Shown: piece by piece, positions 39,265-54,552 of the stretch
Layout: each line of letters begins with the position of its first letter
Numbering within the stretch: position 1 is the stretch's first letter
Assembly: GCF_003286595.3 (NCBI RefSeq)
Contig: NZ_CP132985.1
Location: 744,001-808,000 of the forward strand
DNA length: 64,000 nucleotides
DNA from: Aerococcus mictus
Lineage (GTDB): Bacteria; Bacillota; Bacilli; Lactobacillales; Aerococcaceae
Reading direction: 5' to 3'
Translations under genes and position numbers: made by a program
The notes under the pieces: model-generated
Seen by the model: the letters and a program-made list of their open reading frames with translations, nothing else
The model's database searches: none
Told to the model about the DNA's origin: nothing

Positions 39265-39956
39265 AGGGGGTTATCTTTTTGAAGCTATCAAAAAAAGAAA
39301 TAAAAAAATATGAGGATGCAGGCTATGACCTTAGAATGATCGAACAAATTCAACCAGAAGGTGGAATTTCTTTTAAAGATCGTTTGATTGAATCGGGAAA
39401 TGGTTTTGTTGGATGTCTTCATCTCTATGCTTTAGCTGATAAAGTCAATCAATTGTGGTTGGCAGGGATTATGAGTATTGAACGGACCATTGCTACCATT
39501 GACGTGGCCACAGCTGATAAATATGAAGTGATTGATCGAATTAACAAAACTAGTAAAGAATTGAGAATGCGTGGAAACGAAGAAAAGCATGAAACTGCTG
39601 TTTCTGATGCCGCTTCAAATTACATTCAATTGCAGCAATTTGCTCAGTCTTTAAGTCAACAAGGAGAAATTGCTAAATTAGTTCATGTACGAATTTATTT
39701 CTATGATCATTCTCAAGAGGAACTAGAAAAGCGGATGGGGGATGCTAAGAAAGATTTAACCAATAGGGGGCATAAATTTACAGTCTTTGAATTTAGAAGC
39801 TCTCAAGAGTGGGATTCCCTCTTTCAAAACTATGACCAACAAATGGAATGGTCGAGTTTCCGTTCTGGAGAAGTCTCACCCTCTGTTACTTTAGGGGCAG
39901 GATTACCATTTCACCACCAAAGCCTAAAAGACCCTAGAGGGATTTACTTAGGGGTC

Positions 39957-39981
39957 TATGGTGACCCCAATAAGTTGGACT
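39957..39981. repeat. Left terminal inverted repeat of the IS
   Basis: It begins TATGGTGACCCC and ends AAGTTGGACT, mirrored by the right end. Confidence 0.85.
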
Positions 39982-39992
39982 TTATATATAGT

Positions 39993-40019
39993 GAGTTGGC
40001 CTTTGGCCAGCTCTTTTTT
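39993..40019 (+). terminator. Strong rightward terminator inside the IS left end
   Basis: GAGTTGGCC (39993-40001) and GGCCAGCTC (40005-40013) with a TTT loop are followed by six T. It would stop transcription entering from the upstream virB4 fragment. Confidence 0.75.
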
Positions 40020-40070
40020 GTTGCTTACAGTTCTTGCTTATTTCTTGCCGACACATTTACTCAGAAATTT

Positions 40071-40112
40071 AAACTTGTCAAGAGGAAGAGCGTAGCGGCT
40101 CTTGATAAGTTT
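40071..40112. repeat. Imperfect inverted repeat in the IS left end
   Basis: AAACTTGTCAAGAG (40071-40084) and CTCTTGATAAGTTT (40099-40112) pair at 13 of 14 positions. It lies between the orfB stop and the left inverted repeat. Confidence 0.65.
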
Positions 40113-40130
40113 AAAGTTTATGTGTAATCA

Positions 40131-41021
40131 TTAAGCGGCGAAAGAAGCGTGATGAAGACGAAATTCTATAGGACTCCTAAAATCTAATTTTTCTTTGATT
40201 CTTTCACCATTGTAATAGATTATAAAATCTTCAATCGCTTGTGCTAATTCTTCAAAGGAATGATAAGTCCGACCATAGTAGACTTCTTGTTTTAGTAGAC
40301 TAAAGAAATTCTCCATTGGCGAATTATCTAAGCAATTTCCTTTACGAGACATACTTTGAAAAATTCGGTGATCCTTCAAGAGCCGGGTGTAACTTTTCAT
40401 TTGATAGGCCCAGCCCTGATCAGAATGAAAGGTTCTTCTGTATGGACATAATTTACTTGCTTCAATGGCAGCTTGTAGCCCCTCCAACATGCTTTGTCCA
40501 TTAGGCTGATGTGTTATCTTAAAAGAAATAATTTCTCGATTAAATAGATCCATGTAAGGATCTAAATAGAGTTTTCCAGTTTGATAATTCCCAGAATCAT
40601 CGGCATAGTAGTATTTAAATTCTGTTGTGTCTGTTGTTATTTTTTGATAAGGAATGGTCGAATCAAACCGCCGGTTGATACGATTTGGCGCTATCTCTCC
40701 AATCGTTCCTTTGTAGGAATTATATTTTCTTGTCTTTCTAGTATAGCTAGTGACCTGTATCCCCATAATTTTCATTAGGCGTTGAACTTTGTTTTTACTG
40801 ACCTTATAACCACGGGAAAGCAGTTCAGCTCGCATTCTTCGATAACCATAATCCTTATGGGTTTCTCTGATGTCTTTCATTTCCTCTTTTAAATCGGCAT
40901 CCTTATCAATTTCCTCATCTTTATTTTTCCAATAAAAGTAGGTCGATTTAGGAAACTTTAAAACGCTAAGAATATCTTTTAAAGCATATTTTTCATCATG
41001 GAGACGTGTGATTTCGGTCAC
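40131..41021 (-). CDS. IS3-family transposase OrfB (DDE integrase domain)
   Basis: The 296-residue protein has an N-terminal HTH_21-like region (YGYRRMRAELLSRGYKVSKNKVQRLM) and an rve catalytic core. The DDE residues are seen in TTDTTEF, HSDQGW and MENFFS, and IIYYNGERIKEKLDF lies near the end. It catalyses strand transfer of the IS. Its GTG start overlaps the orfA stop by one base, as in IS3 elements where a programmed -1 frameshift makes an OrfAB fusion. The exact slippery site in the A-rich end of orfA was not identified. All catalytic residues are intact. Confidence 0.93.
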   Translation of the reverse strand: MTEITRLHDEKYALKDILSVLKFPKSTYFYWKNKDEEIDKDADLKEEMKDIRETHKDYGYRRMRAELLSRGYKVSKNKVQRLMKIMGIQVTSYTRKTRKYNSYKGTIGEIAPNRINRRFDSTIPYQKITTDTTEFKYYYADDSGNYQTGKLYLDPYMDLFNREIISFKITHQPNGQSMLEGLQAAIEASKLCPYRRTFHSDQGWAYQMKSYTRLLKDHRIFQSMSRKGNCLDNSPMENFFSLLKQEVYYGRTYHSFEELAQAIEDFIIYYNGERIKEKLDFRSPIEFRLHHASFAA

Positions 41022-41557
41022 TATTTCTTCTTTTCTCGCTTGACTCTTTGAGCCACACGTCTCCTCAATCCTTTTAAAAATTTGTTCTCAATTTCTAAAT
41101 CCGTAATCCGTTGTTCAAGTTCCTTTATTTTTGCTTCACTTAACTGATTGGTTTCGCTGCTATCCTTTATTTGATTGATTTGTGATTTCTTTTTAGACAC
41201 TTTAGGTGGCCTTCCTTTCCTCGCGGAAAGGCCATCAAGTCCTCTTTCATGATAAGCTCTTCGCCAATTAGCGATTAGACTTGGATTATTCATGTTTAAT
41301 GAATTGGCCAATTCGCGATAACTCATTTCCGTACTTTCATACAATTCTATCGCATTTAATTTGAATTCAACAGTATAAACCTGTTGAGTCCGCCTTTTCT
41401 TTAAACCATCTACACCAAATTCATAATAGTTATTAACCCACCTTCGTAAAATAGAAGGATCTATTCCTGCTTTATTAGCTAAGGTTCGATAACTTCCTTT
41501 TTTCGCAATATAGTCTCCTACTAAATTCAGTTTAAATTCTAATGAATATTTAGACAT
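41021..41557 (-). CDS. IS3-family transposase OrfA
   Basis: The 178-residue protein has two helix-turn-helix modules (YSLEFKLNLVGDYIAKKGSY and YTVEFKLNAIELYESTEMSY) and a C-terminal leucine-zipper-like helix (IKELEQRITDLEIENKFLKG) ending KREKKK. It recognises the IS ends and regulates transposition. The ATG at 41557 is preceded by GGGGGTTA and is chosen over a start 15 bp upstream. Confidence 0.9.
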   Translation of the reverse strand: MSKYSLEFKLNLVGDYIAKKGSYRTLANKAGIDPSILRRWVNNYYEFGVDGLKKRRTQQVYTVEFKLNAIELYESTEMSYRELANSLNMNNPSLIANWRRAYHERGLDGLSARKGRPPKVSKKKSQINQIKDSSETNQLSEAKIKELEQRITDLEIENKFLKGLRRRVAQRVKREKKK

Positions 41558-41585
41558 AAAAATAACCCCCAAAAGTTGAATTCTT

Positions 41586-41610
41586 AGTCCAACTTTTGGG
41601 GGTCACTACA
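41586..41610. repeat. Right terminal inverted repeat of the IS
   Basis: It reads outward as TGTAGTGACCCC to AAGTTGGACT, matching the left end at 21 of 25 positions. Confidence 0.85.
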
Positions 41611-42876
41611 GTCACCTCGACTAATGGGGCCTTTATTTTTGACCCATTCCTATCAACCGCCACACGTAAATCATTCAATGGCTTTGTCTTAGGAAAGATG
41701 GGTTATGGTAAATCAACCGTTTTAAAGATGATCGAAGAAGGACTTGTTGCTAAAAACTGCTTTATTCGTGGTTTTGATAAAGCACGTGACTTTCATAAGC
41801 TCATAAAGTCTCAAAAAGGGATGATTATTGACTTAGCAGGAGATAATGGTGAAATTATTAATCCTTTAGAGATCTTTGCGACGGCTACTGATTTAACTGG
41901 TCAAAAAGTCAATGAATTCGGGTCGTTTATGCACCATATCGCTAAAGTAACTAACATTATGCGGTTTATGTATCCATCTTTAACTGATATGCAAATTACT
42001 GAATTCCGTACTTATTTAAGAGAATTTTATATTCAATGGGGATTATTAAGACCTGACTATAACTCAAACCAATCACAAGTTAAGGTGACAGGATTAGATC
42101 CAAAAGCCTATCCGATCTTCTCTGATTTCTTAGCCTTTCTAAACAGCTATTCCTTATCAGGTAATGTGACTAGTGGAAAAAGAGCAACGCTCGAAACATT
42201 AAAGACCTATGTTCAAGAAATCGTATCGCAATATGGCCCACTATTTAATGGGCATACTACGATTTCTGACTTAGCGCAAGAAAGTGTCTTGTTCTTTGAT
42301 ATTGACAACTTGTCTAACTTGGATAGAGAAGTTTTCCAAGCACAACTTTTCCAGGCCTTAACGATTATCTGGTCTCACGGTTTGATTAATGGACGTAAGA
42401 TGAAGGCGAAGCTCGAGTCCAAACAGATTACTCTCGATGAATACCGTAATTTTATGGTGTTTATTGATGAAGCCCATAATGTCATTAATGCGCAAAACTT
42501 AGGCGCTGTACAATACGTGACTAACTTCATGCGTGAAATGCGTAAATTTGGTGCAGGGGTAATTTTTGCTACCCAAACACCAGCCGAAGTGTTACCAGAA
42601 TCATCATCTAACGAAGCTATTGACGAAGTGAAGAAAGTTTTCGAGCTTTGTCAGTATAAAATTCTATTGAATCTCGATAACAGTATGGTAAGTCGGATGA
42701 AATCCGTTTTAGGAGATACGATAACAGAAACAGACTTTGCAAAATTACCTCGATTAAAACAAGGAGAAGCCGTGGTTCAGCTCTCCTCAACAGAAAATTA
42801 TAATGTGTCCTTTATTCCTACTGCTGATCAATTGGATCGCTTTGCAGGAGGGCAATAATCTAATAGGAGTGATTTC

Positions 42877-50553: not shown

Positions 50554-50590
50554 AACACCCCTTGAAGAGGTTGCTTCAAGGGGTGTTTTT
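50554..50590. terminator. Bidirectional terminator shared by toxin and antitoxin RNAs
   Basis: AACACCCCTTGAAG (50554-50567) pairs perfectly with CTTCAAGGGGTGTT (50574-50587), followed by TTT. It lies between two convergent transcripts. Confidence 0.85.
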
Positions 50591-50638
50591 GTCACTCAGA
50601 GGTGGGTATGAGCGTGTGTGGTTAATGGGCTAATAAGA

Positions 50639-50731
50639 TTATTGCTTCTTGTTTAACCACCAAGAAAATAACTCAATGAGTATTCCCACAATTAGTGGTG
50701 CAATAATCAACGTTAGGATCGTGTTAATCAA
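50639..50731 (-). CDS. Fst-family small membrane toxin (type I toxin-antitoxin)
   Basis: The 30-residue peptide reads (L)INTILTLIIAPLIVGILI then ELFSWWLNKKQ. It shows the Fst hallmarks: a single hydrophobic helix with the IIAP.IVG motif and a charged, polar tail. Fst toxins insert in the membrane and kill or arrest cells that lose the locus. The start is a TTG with a GGGAGGTG site. In the mRNA the site is held in a 5' stem (CTCCC with GGGAG, about 50745-50760), as known for fst RNA I. Confidence 0.8.
   Translation of the reverse strand: MINTILTLIIAPLIVGILIELFSWWLNKKQ
50709..50724. repeat. Direct repeat of the par locus (toxin copy)
   Basis: A perfect 16-bp copy of 50525-50540, located within the first codons of the toxin gene. 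Pairing with RNA II here would block toxin translation. Confidence 0.8.
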
Positions 50732-50779
50732 AAATAACACCTCCCTTCTCGGGAGTTAGCCCTAATAGAAATTATATCA

Positions 50780-50864: not shown

Positions 50865-51614
50865 ATGATAATTACTAACAGACTACTTGAAGAAAAGAAA
50901 ACTAAATTTTCTGGTGGACTTTATGATTGGACTCAATATAAATTTGCGTATAACTCATCTAAGATTGAAGGAACACTTTTAAGTGAGTATCAAACACGGT
51001 TAATGTATGAAACCAAGAAAATTAAATTTTCTAATGAAACTGCTATAGAAATTGATGATTTAATAGAGGTTCAGAATCATTTTAAATGTTTTGATTTTAT
51101 TTTAGAAAACTATGAAGAAGAGTTAAGTCATGAATATATTAAAAAGTTACATAGCCTACTTAAATCAGGCATCTCATCCGATCAGAGCTACTTAATGCCT
51201 GTTGGAAATTATAAAACCTTTGATAATGAAGTTGGTTATGTTCAAACATCACCTGCTGAACGGACTGAGGATGATATGACTAGTTTATTGTTAGGTTATA
51301 ACTATAAAAGTCATAAATCTTTAGAAGATATTGTCGATTTTCATGTCCAATTTGAAACAATTCATCCTTTTGCTGATGGAAATGGGCGTGTAGGAAGATT
51401 GATTATGTTTAAAGAATGTCTAGCTAACGATATAATTCCTTTTGTAATAAGGGTTGAAGTTGGACTTGACTATAGAGAATCTTTAGATGATTATCGCAAT
51501 GGTGACAAAGGTCGCTTGCTTAATATAGTTGAATCAGAGCAAAATATTTATTTAAATAAATGTATCGATTTAAGAATCATTGACCCTGACCAGCAATATG
51601 ACCTTGAAAGATAA
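50865..51614 (+). CDS. Fic-domain protein with N-terminal inhibitory motif
   Basis: The 249-residue protein carries the Fic motif HPFADGNGRVGR (His167 catalytic). Its N-terminal helix has SSKIEGT, matching the class II inhibitory motif (S/T)xxxE(G/N) that blocks the ATP site. Fic enzymes AMPylate or otherwise modify proteins, and many serve as toxins or stress regulators. Here inhibition appears intramolecular, so no separate antitoxin is expected. The ATG follows CAGGTGAGAG. A terminator follows directly. Confidence 0.88.
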   Translation: MIITNRLLEEKKTKFSGGLYDWTQYKFAYNSSKIEGTLLSEYQTRLMYETKKIKFSNETAIEIDDLIEVQNHFKCFDFILENYEEELSHEYIKKLHSLLKSGISSDQSYLMPVGNYKTFDNEVGYVQTSPAERTEDDMTSLLLGYNYKSHKSLEDIVDFHVQFETIHPFADGNGRVGRLIMFKECLANDIIPFVIRVEVGLDYRESLDDYRNGDKGRLLNIVESEQNIYLNKCIDLRIIDPDQQYDLER

Positions 51615-51634
51615 ACTAAATAAGTATTAATAAA

Positions 51635-51666
51635 AAGGCTTTCCGTTAAAAGAAAGCCTTTTCTTT
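51635..51666 (+). terminator. Intrinsic terminator of the Fic gene
   Basis: AAGGCTTTC (51635-51643) pairs with GAAAGCCTT (51652-51660), followed by TTCTTT. Confidence 0.75.
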
Positions 51667-51677
51667 ATGCATTAAAA

Positions 51678-51736
51678 AAAGGAATTGCCTACACTTATGA
51701 CACATTCAAGATATGTGCTACCTGTACAATTCCTTT
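51678..51736 (+). ncRNA. Structured RNA repeat A (candidate type III antitoxin unit)
   Basis: The outer stem is AAAGGAATTG (51678-51687) with CAATTCCTTT (51727-51736). The inner stem is CACAT (51701-51705) with ATGTG (51713-51717), with a TCAAG loop that can pair with upstream CTT (possible pseudoknot). It shares the frame GCCT.C, CTTATG, inner stem, TCAAG, TACCTGTA with the next two copies. Confidence 0.65.
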
Positions 51737-51740
51737 GCTC

Positions 51741-51804
51741 ATTAATAAGATACCTTCTCTAGTGGAGTAACTCGAAGTGTACTCTGCTTGTATATCTTAT
51801 TAAT
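51741..51804 (+). ncRNA. Structured RNA repeat B (candidate type III antitoxin unit)
   Basis: The outer stem is a perfect 12-bp ATTAATAAGATA (51741-51752) with TATCTTATTAAT (51793-51804). The inner stem is GAGTA (51765-51769) with TACTC (51780-51784). Loop GAAG can pair with upstream CTTC. The sequence differs from copies A and C while the fold is kept. Confidence 0.65.
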
Positions 51805-51810
51805 AAAAAA

Positions 51811-51865
51811 AGAGGATGCCTTACCTTATGGAACAGTCAAGGCCTGTTCTGCCTGTACATCCTCT
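51811..51865 (+). ncRNA. Structured RNA repeat C (candidate type III antitoxin unit)
   Basis: The outer stem is AGAGGATG (51811-51818) with CATCCTCT (51858-51865). The inner stem is GAACAG (51831-51836) with CTGTTC (51844-51849). Loop AAGG can pair with upstream CCTT. It ends 28 bp before the toxin-like start codon. Confidence 0.65.
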
Positions 51866-51893
51866 AATAATATATTAAGGGAGGACTCAAAAA

Positions 51894-52985
51894 ATGTCAA
51901 CCTATAAGACAGTTCTTATTAAACCTGAATTTATAGCTGAGACAGTTATGAGGACAGGTAGCGAACAATTATTAGAGAAAGATTCGAGAAGCTATGTGGG
52001 ATTATATAACGAAAAGGAGAACTGGTATATTCCTTTACGCTCAAAATTAAGTATAAAAAGTCCGAAAGGTTCACATTATGCAACGCCTTTTAATACAACA
52101 AATCCTCATTTTATACGTCCAGGATTAGATTTTCAAAAAGCGTTATATGTTCCTAAAGATAAAATTGTAGAAATTAGGAATACTTTGCCCTATGAACAGA
52201 ATCAATTTATTTTAGAGCACCAAGAAGATATCCAAGACAAGTTTGAAGAATATGTATTATCTACTGAAGAATTAGATCGAAAATCAACCGAATTTCTGTT
52301 CTCTACCGTTCCCTTGTTTCCAGAAGGTGTTGAACGCATTAAAGAAAAGCATTTAAAAGATTTAACCATTGATTTTAATCAAGAGCTATATGATGATCCT
52401 ACAATTTCCGAAGGTGGTATTAGCTATCAAGGCGAAACGTTAGAACATTTCATGGATGATGTTGGTCTAACTAAAGAAACACCTTTAGATGAAATCAATA
52501 AAACACTTCAAGAATGCGGTATTCAACCCATAGATTATGGAAAAACAGACCAAAACGTTACAAATAGAAAGGAAGATAAAAATATAATGGAGACAACAAT
52601 TGAAAATTATAAAGGTGAGGAAGTACCAGTAGTACTTGAAGTCCACCAATATGCTGCAAACGAAACCTTAGCGCTTTACGCTAATGAAAAAGATACAGGT
52701 GAATTGTACACGGAATTAACGACTTATGGGGCACAATTTCGTAATAACGAAGGGGAAGGAGTCACTCACCTTGCCTTGCGTAGTGATAAGCCTGAATATA
52801 AAGCAGCTTTAGAAAAAATTGGCTTCTTAGAAGTTCCGTATCCCTTTTATCAAGATCCTAAAGGGAACATAACTGTTGATTATTATGATTTAAGTGACGA
52901 GGCGATTCAATTTTGCAATGGAGAGATTGCTAAGCAACAAGGAATTGATCAATATCAAAATTATGACGATGAGTTGGAACTATAA
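51894..52985 (+). CDS. ToxN/AbiQ-like toxin domain fused to a second domain
   Basis: The 363-residue protein has an N-terminal domain (about 1-125) with the ToxN/AbiQ pattern. SYVGLYNEKENWYIPLRSKL corresponds to the (F/Y)xGI...YxxPLxSxK core, GLDFQKALYVP follows, and YEQNQFILEHQEDIQDKFEE matches the C-terminal helix. A linker and a C-terminal domain (about 232-345) resembling DUF4313-type ICE proteins follow. An internal ATG at 52587 with an AAAGGAAG site could make the C-terminal part alone. ToxN proteins are endoribonucleases inhibited by tandem RNA repeats, as found just upstream. A GGGAGGA site precedes the ATG. The call is motif-based. Confidence 0.6.
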   Translation: MSTYKTVLIKPEFIAETVMRTGSEQLLEKDSRSYVGLYNEKENWYIPLRSKLSIKSPKGSHYATPFNTTNPHFIRPGLDFQKALYVPKDKIVEIRNTLPYEQNQFILEHQEDIQDKFEEYVLSTEELDRKSTEFLFSTVPLFPEGVERIKEKHLKDLTIDFNQELYDDPTISEGGISYQGETLEHFMDDVGLTKETPLDEINKTLQECGIQPIDYGKTDQNVTNRKEDKNIMETTIENYKGEEVPVVLEVHQYAANETLALYANEKDTGELYTELTTYGAQFRNNEGEGVTHLALRSDKPEYKAALEKIGFLEVPYPFYQDPKGNITVDYYDLSDEAIQFCNGEIAKQQGIDQYQNYDDELEL

Positions 52986-53019: not shown

Positions 53020-54552
53020 ATGATGGGTAGTCCTGGTATTATCCTTTCGGGAAAGTTTTCATTGCCCAATTCAGGTGAGAGTTATGGAGGCTATGCTGAT
53101 TATCTAACTAGAACGGAAGCATTAGAGCGAGATAAAAATAGTGAAGAACGTAGAAAATCCGAAGCGAAGCAAATTATCGATTATCACCGTATGTTAAGAG
53201 ATCCTGATATTGATAAAAAAGATAAAGACTTTGGCCGTTATGTGTACTACACCACACGAAAGTATGCCTTAGATCAAAAAAATAAAAAGAATGAAAAAGG
53301 CGAAAAGATCTTATCTGGAGTGTTTTCTGATAAGTTAGATCAAATGACCATGAAAGATAAACGTGAATTTTCTAAAGTGTTAACCGAAGCTCAAGAAAAA
53401 GGGTCAGTTATGTGGGAAGATGTTATTTCTTTTGATAATACCTATTTAGAAGAAAATGGCCTATATAATTCGACAACTGGAGAATTAGATGAAGATCGCT
53501 TACAAAAAGCCACTCGAAAAATGATGAAAAAATTTGCTAAGTTAGAAGATCTTCATGAACCAAGATGGATGGCTAGTATTCATCGCAATACTGATAATAT
53601 TCATATTCACTTGGCCACAGTCGAATTAGAACCTTCTAGAAAGCAGGTAGTCGTTGACAATAAAAAGCAACCTCGTGGTAAAAGAAAACAGAGTTCTTTA
53701 GATAAAATGAAAACTGAATTTGGCACAGAGTTATTACAAATGTCTGAATTATTTTATCAAGTGACAGATCAAAGACAAAAAGCGGTTGATGATATACGGA
53801 AATATCTAGAAAAACGTTATGAAAAAGATATTTATACTCAAACGATTGATTATTTAGATCATATCGAAGGTAACGATTGGCATAAAAAAGTAAAACGGAA
53901 CCATGTATCCTATAAAAAGTTAGATGGAGAAGGGAAATACCGTATTGATCAAGTTGTAAAGAAAGTTGCTAATGAAGACGAAACTTTTAGAAATGACTTG
54001 GAAGAGTACGAACAAATGATTCAGCTAAATAACGATATTTTTAAAAAGATGTATGGCCAAAAATATGATAAAAAAGAAGAATATCTGTCAACAAGAACTG
54101 CTGAATTGAAAGAGCGTTTGGGCAACCGAACGCTTAAAGAGCTTGGAAAAATGAAAGAAGAGCGCTTACAGAATAGTAATAATAAACAAAAAGAAGTCAA
54201 GAAAGATATATGGAAAGATATAAAGGAAAATCGATTGCCACAAGAAGAAATTATTAATAAATATAAAAGTTCAGAACCTAATGTCTCTTCAAAACAGCTT
54301 AAAAAGATAAAATCTTCTTATGATAATAAGAAAGAGAAAAATCAAGGAGTTAAAGATGATAAAAATGGAACTTCCTATTCTTATAAGAAATCAAGGTATC
54401 GATCATATACTGGAGTTGAGAAGAATTTATGGGTAGCTGGTAAAAAGTCGGAAAGAGAACTTTCTAATGCTTTAAAAAGAACAATGTATCAAGAAAAACA
54501 ACGTGCGATGCAAAGTTATCAAGAAATGATGGCGGACGTAGAAAGAGCCTAA
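53020..54552 (+). CDS. MobL-type relaxase
   Basis: The 510-residue protein shows an N-terminal relaxase domain (about 1-210) with the HUH-type motif NTDNIHIHLATVEL and a conserved start (GKFSLPNSGESYGGYADYL). A long charged helical C-terminus (about 250-510) follows. It resembles the MOBL family defined by the relaxase of Bacillus plasmid pLS20. It would nick oriT, stay covalently bound to the DNA and pilot it into the recipient. An AGAGGTG site precedes two adjacent ATGs (53020, 53023). Its oriT is probably the non-coding region at 47.2-47.7 kb. Confidence 0.75.
   Translation: MMGSPGIILSGKFSLPNSGESYGGYADYLTRTEALERDKNSEERRKSEAKQIIDYHRMLRDPDIDKKDKDFGRYVYYTTRKYALDQKNKKNEKGEKILSGVFSDKLDQMTMKDKREFSKVLTEAQEKGSVMWEDVISFDNTYLEENGLYNSTTGELDEDRLQKATRKMMKKFAKLEDLHEPRWMASIHRNTDNIHIHLATVELEPSRKQVVVDNKKQPRGKRKQSSLDKMKTEFGTELLQMSELFYQVTDQRQKAVDDIRKYLEKRYEKDIYTQTIDYLDHIEGNDWHKKVKRNHVSYKKLDGEGKYRIDQVVKKVANEDETFRNDLEEYEQMIQLNNDIFKKMYGQKYDKKEEYLSTRTAELKERLGNRTLKELGKMKEERLQNSNNKQKEVKKDIWKDIKENRLPQEEIINKYKSSEPNVSSKQLKKIKSSYDNKKEKNQGVKDDKNGTSYSYKKSRYRSYTGVEKNLWVAGKKSERELSNALKRTMYQEKQRAMQSYQEMMADVERA

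Follow-up and report, generated by a model that had tools for sequence, protein, structure and literature searches.

The window analysed here is a 64,000-nucleotide (nt) stretch of the Aerococcus mictus genome (contig NZ_CP132985.1, positions 744,001 to 808,000), and all coordinates below count from its first letter. At 51674-51900, its minus strand carries a candidate small RNA that is probably a type III-like antitoxin to the predicted ToxN-fold domain of the protein encoded on the other strand at 51894-52985, a real open reading frame of 363 amino acids. The RNA is present at all ten closely related toxin loci, with one unit in nine of the ten and three in the window.

In the proposed mechanism, a small RNA would be made from a promoter that overlaps the start codon of the toxin gene, its three units of about 55 nt would fold as stem-closed pseudoknots, and the RNA would inhibit the predicted ToxN-fold ribonuclease domain by binding to it. 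The RNA, as long as it is made, would keep the toxin domain harmless, and immunity would extend to cells or elements that have the RNA alone. An earlier note on this DNA had proposed a pseudoknotted RNA beside a ToxN/AbiQ-fold domain with a fused second part, and that much stands; the same-direction leader array that it envisaged gives way to opposite-strand signals and single units. If our reading is true, a type III-like RNA antitoxin can exist as a small RNA gene of its own that is mobile without its toxin, ToxN-fold domains occur fused to conjugation proteins, and RNA-based immunity between mobile elements can be tested directly. It could also account for the failure of searches for same-strand tandem repeats to pick up such loci.

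Structure of the RNA Units

Each of the window units (A, B, and C) has two stems, one outer and one inner, and a short loop; the stem letters differ among the units while the pairing is kept. The three divergent tandem units of the earlier note are borne out, and both stems covary. In an alignment of nine units (three from the window and six from other loci), the outer stem pairs in 65 of 72 cells and the inner stem in 48 of 54, with permutations as good in 0 of 20000 for either stem. The loop and the plus-strand downstream TGCCTG pair in 33 of 36 cells, and only 11 of 20000 permutations did as well. The pairing of the loop with an upstream CTT stretch, as proposed before, did not hold: 34 of 45 cells pair, 5850 of 20000 permutations are as good, and the pseudoknot partner is the other flank. 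A third helix forms between the AGGC-type letters of the hairpin loop and GCCT-type letters past the inner stem; it is AAGC/GCTT at locus L007, and a C-G swap at L006 keeps the pairing.

On the minus strand, seven units show 96.8% pairing with both sides changed in 14 of the 18 pairs, and 17 distinct units show 96.3% with both sides changed in 16 of the 18. These counts leave out the near-copies L004, L005, and L014 and take the identical second copy at L036 once; model A7 was built without L003 and L006, because MAFFT misplaced their gaps, and these two served as held-out tests. The pseudoknot helix, which lies outside the search model, reaches 96.9% pairing, and none of 500 shuffles was as good. 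The covarying outer stem, inner stem, and pseudoknot helix are those of a pseudoknot-type antitoxin RNA, as a predicted structure. Ten unpaired positions are nearly invariant among the units.

Some units taken singly fold little better than shuffles: on the minus strand, shuffles were as good in 21 of 200 cases for the unit of L002, 22 of 200 for L007, and 12 of 200 for L001. For the window units the counts were 1 of 200 (A), 0 of 200 (B), and 2 of 200 (C). Window unit C is 91% identical to the unit of the Enterococcus gilvus toxin locus; units A and B have at most 69% and 67% identity to any other unit. No Rfam family scores above its gathering score over the units, the sole such match in the window (RefB11) lying elsewhere; at relaxed E-values, 51600-51900 gave 21 matches of many kinds, all under their gathering scores.

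Likely Strand, Promoter, and Transcript End

The RNA likely lies on the strand opposite to the toxin gene, with its own promoter and an end in a U-run, as judged from the following sequence signals. On the plus strand, the non-Watson-Crick cells of the nine units comprise 11 A-C, one G-U, and five others, and on the minus strand those of the 17 units comprise 17 G-U, three A-C, and eight others (binomial P 0.0026, for units that are not independent). Because plus-strand A-C mismatches are minus-strand G-U pairs, this is a sign of a minus-strand RNA. By our reasoning, a classical H-type pseudoknot would accommodate the minus-strand loops of 1-2 and 3-4 nt, while a plus-strand fold would leave one or two nucleotides to bridge the inner stem.

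The best minus-strand promoter stands in one register at 10 of 10 toxin loci, with the -10 box 17 or 18 nt on, and its -35 box TTGACA is the complement of the start ATGTCAA (L006 has TTGTCAA, and its ATG lies 6 nt upstream). The match is perfect at seven loci and 11/12 at two. About seven loci are independent, because L003/L004/L014 and L001/L005 are near-copies. No plus-strand promoter was found in a shared register at these loci. In seven loci, 27-34 nt separate the unit edge from the start codon. Measurement of six loci with a single unit puts the end of the -10 box 5-12 nt ahead of the unit, and therefore the primary transcript would have its start close to the foot of the outer stem and its end in the U-run. 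Such a transcript, in contrast to the canonical type III arrays, would not have to be cut by the toxin. U-runs follow the outer stem in most units on the minus strand and are absent after window unit B; in L001 the U-run belongs to a separate hairpin. The A-rich linkers noted earlier before units A and C are indeed present, but read on the minus strand they are U-runs after the outer stem. We infer from these signals that the RNA is transcribed.

The Putative Toxin Protein

The top five matches of the predicted structure of the N-terminal domain in the PDB are all type III toxins, which upholds the ToxN-like fold suggested in the earlier note. By sequence alone, single and profile searches of the PDB matched no type III toxin, and PADLOC gave no family for the toxin protein. 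A separate protein search gave an Aerococcus protein with 79% identity. TenpIN (NF047358) is the only NCBIfam match for 15 of 15 aligned N-terminal domains. Arg49 is found in 35 of 35 aligned rows, and Lys29, Arg32, and His72 in 34 of 35, the remaining row being a gap. The domain is predicted, on its structure model, to be a ToxN-fold ribonuclease, and we infer its ribonuclease activity, its binding of the RNA, and its inhibition by the RNA.

Related N-terminal domains ride on conjugation-module proteins (ArdC, Toprim, and others); Lactococcus pUC06A and p14B4 each have a locus with the domain, and stand-alone relatives come from Fannyhessea, Solobacterium, and Weissella. In the window protein, the second part seen earlier does exist, but Pfam gives it no domain identity. 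The plasmid search also returned nothing for this C-terminal part, and its only matches were the same protein and one Aerococcus protein. The AlphaFold2 (AF2) model of this part has a predicted local distance difference test (pLDDT) score of 46, and this low-confidence model was not used for a fold search.

Distribution of the Toxin Domain and of the RNA

The toxin domain is found in 3 of 395, 3 of 105, and 2 of 335 genomes, in sets that overlap, one hit of the first two sets being the distant relative L012 and one of the third the distant relative L013; the TenpIN family is found in 6 of 295 genomes, one of them over the cut-off. The first of two contig-set scans for the domain gave no locus and the second three; four protein scans of viral contigs gave one toxin locus. 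The RNA (model R1) has 12 matches in 11 of 395 genomes. Five reach at least 52 bits, and two of these five stand at known toxin loci. Among seven weaker matches (L025-L031), L027 (22.4 bits) and L031 (21.5 bits) are counted as likely real distant copies, because each has a promoter-like sequence (TTGACT-N16-TATAAT) and a U-run hairpin; the other five were judged by eye to be chance.

The domain search of the 395-genome set listed only G001, G003, and G373, and several copies of the RNA stand apart from a toxin. In G211, a genome without a listed domain, the RNA (67.2 bits) lies on a 4.3-kilobase contig with a replication-like gene (by eye), and in G016, likewise without one, it lies beside an ArsC-like gene (by eye; 64.6 bits). 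Enterococcus cecorum G003 has a second copy (L033 8318-8372, 52.7 bits). A cas9-like gene (by eye) accompanied by a long repeat array lies about 400 nt away, which is either a chance neighbourhood or a link. Plasmid unnamed5 of Lactococcus lactis LB7 holds two copies, and plasmid unnamed4 of the same strain holds the toxin locus L004. It should be mentioned that unnamed5 (L036) appears to be a head-to-tail dimer, with the RNA and a lactococcin gene each present twice. Plasmid pAT40b-c of Enterococcus faecalis has two adjacent units (67.1 and 64.7 bits), the first of which is 91% identical to the unit of the E. cecorum toxin locus. Neither unnamed5 nor pAT40b-c is among the records listed when the plasmid collection was searched for the domain. 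No RNA was found in annotated phages; in viral contigs, two RNA patterns had no match and a third matched only the contig of toxin locus L008.

The RNA matches on plasmids without a detected toxin suggest a portable immunity. More tentatively, and in our view less likely than not, the toxin domains that rival conjugative elements carry fused to their DNA-handling proteins may be met by self-contained RNA antitoxin genes on plasmids and chromosomes, in some cases arrays with differing specificities, as a transferable immunity; the window array of three unlike units would then combine the element's own antitoxin with two against rival toxins.

Two distant relatives have other arrangements. A Toprim protein at L013 (1489-3228) carries a different TenpIN-like domain (54.7 bits), and this RNA is absent; the fusion seems to have arisen independently but is of the same kind, and the genome belongs to the same family as G002. 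At L012 (1501-3278), the reading frame changes after a distant relative of the domain, and the next frame is ArdC-like (by eye); that locus has no R1 RNA.

Weighing the Explanations

Several observations weigh against an RNA antitoxin acting on a ToxN-fold toxin. The distant relatives L012 and L013 have neither such an RNA nor such a promoter (8/12 and 7/12 matches). Among the ten promoters, that of the window is weakest (10/12), with 20 of 100 shuffles as good, and because the -35 half lies within the coding sequence, its conservation may come partly from the protein. No promoter of the toxin gene itself was found, and a terminator scan (loops of 3-8 nt only) listed no site in 51400-52100. 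For the pseudoknot helix alone, 48 of 500 shuffles reach its two-sided changes and 205 of 500 its pair types. The window protein scores 32.9 bits against TenpIN, whose cut-off is 90, and is therefore a relative of that family and not a filed member. The position of ToxN Ser53, placed by motif match and not by structure, is apparently Ala in 61 of 109 relatives and Ser in 48, and some relatives may therefore be inactive. This variation, together with the fusion to conjugation proteins, would also suit a domain that has lost its toxicity and regulates the conjugation gene by binding RNA, the RNA here being its ligand or decoy. We regard such a regulator as improbable, as the four conserved residues leave room for catalysis and the RNA copies far from the domain have no such gene to regulate.

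It is unlikely, in our judgement, that the locus is type I-like, with a minus-strand RNA that pairs with the toxin mRNA leader or interferes at the start codon and binds no protein. The RNA would be fully complementary to any mRNA starting upstream of the units, and the likely promoter and the start codon overlap in all ten loci; however, antisense action alone needs no fixed loop letters and ten unpaired positions are nearly invariant, the pseudoknot pairs covary, and the motif is kept in RNA copies that lack an adjacent toxin domain. In type I systems the toxin is a small hydrophobic peptide, whereas the protein here has 363 amino acids and a predicted ToxN fold. A canonical type III leader, a plus-strand precursor cut by the toxin at A-rich linkers, seems very improbable. 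A ToxN-fold protein does lie downstream, and the TenpIN-like loci L017 and L018, of the same order, have two repeats and a terminator before the toxin (by eye), but the plus-strand A-C mismatches, the minus-strand promoter and U-runs, the single unit in nine of ten loci, and the lack of a plus-strand promoter in a shared register all speak against it. The RNA at all ten loci, the ten conserved unpaired letters, and the toxin-free copies favour direct protein inhibition over pure antisense. For a toxin mRNA that begins upstream of the units, the RNA would also be antisense to the leader; direct inhibition and antisense control could both act, and base-pairing control or promoter interference may add to the protein binding.

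The Locus and Its Neighbourhood

The features of the locus are collected in Table 1. The window DNA is likely a mobile element, and its genes suggest that it is conjugative. Upstream of the three RNA units lie a Fic gene and a short hairpin (by eye).

Table 1. Features of the toxin and RNA locus, in window coordinates
Feature	Position	Strand	Remarks
-35 box TTGACA, likely RNA promoter	51895..51900	-	overlaps toxin start codon (plus strand ATGTCAA)
-10 box TAATAT	51872..51877	-	spacer 17, 6 nt ahead of unit C; 10/12 matches
RNA unit C, would be transcribed first	51811..51865	-	78.8 bits; outer stem and predicted H-type pseudoknot
U-run after unit C	51805..51810	-	likely intrinsic terminator with outer stem; from sequence
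RNA unit B	51745..51800	-	64.6 bits; without U-run
RNA unit A	51680..51734	-	69.3 bits
U-run after unit A	51674..51679	-	likely terminator; from sequence
Hairpin, T-runs on both strands	51633..51662		by eye; likely Fic gene end and back-up RNA end
N-terminal domain, predicted ToxN fold, residues 1-155	51894..52358	+	
C-terminal part of toxin-fusion protein	52353..52985	+	no Pfam match
MobP2-family relaxase gene, directly downstream of fusion gene	53020..54552	+	

The RefB11 match (56.5 bits, 50588-50761, minus strand) covers a minus-strand frame, which we take to read like an Fst-type toxin peptide. The Fic gene beside this site matches PDC-S04 of PADLOC, and at the E. gilvus locus L001 an annotated Fst toxin adjoins the fusion gene. 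Elsewhere in the window, two transposase-like frames (40131-41572, minus strand) lie between two frames, at 39279-40127 and 41596-42858, that resemble parts of one VirB4-type ATPase gene, according to the list of open reading frames only.

Comparison with Known Systems

TenpIN is the closest filed family in that it is the sole NCBIfam match of the domains and likewise has a pseudoknot-type RNA beside the toxin. Since TenpIN-like loci have two repeats and a terminator (L017 and L018) or a 53-nt repeat in 2.1 copies (L015), the layout here is a departure: the RNA is probably encoded opposite to the toxin under a promoter of its own, most often as one unit, the toxin strand has no terminator between RNA and toxin, and the toxin is fused to conjugation proteins. 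In contrast to ToxIN and AbiQ (PDB 4ato, 4glk, 2xd0, and 7d8o), an outer stem closes each unit here; the same differences hold for CptIN (PDB 4rmo), at lower similarity.

Type III antitoxins are described as co-transcribed tandem arrays (PMC5086642, PMC12373285), ToxI being a co-directional tandem array cut by ToxN (PMC5086642); PMC5086642 gives as criteria tandem repeats upstream and a Rho-independent terminator before the toxin. The loci here have a ToxN-fold toxin, by predicted structure, but depart from this layout: the signals lie on the minus strand, nine of the ten loci have a single unit, the three units of the window are divergent, and the terminator scan listed no site before the toxin. 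In the open-licence literature, which excludes subscription papers and preprints, we found nothing linking TenpN with ArdC, ToxN with 'polyvalent protein', or a type III toxin with ArdC and conjugation, and the main text of PMC5512222 names no ToxN, MazF, or AbiQ.

Two systems come near in mechanism. In AbiF/RCd22 of Clostridioides difficile, the RNA antitoxin works by direct protein contact and the transcripts carry both motifs uncut (PMC12373285); the antitoxin RNA proposed here would likewise act uncut by direct contact, and the differences are that the AbiF toxin belongs to the family Abi_2 and that its RNA motifs lie ahead of the toxin gene, which is the canonical type III layout. The pseudo-ToxI of phage PhiTE is an antitoxin-like RNA on a mobile element that neutralises the toxin (PMC12548467, PMC5086642); there it is described from escape mutants, whereas here the RNA copies are standing ones on plasmids and in genomes.
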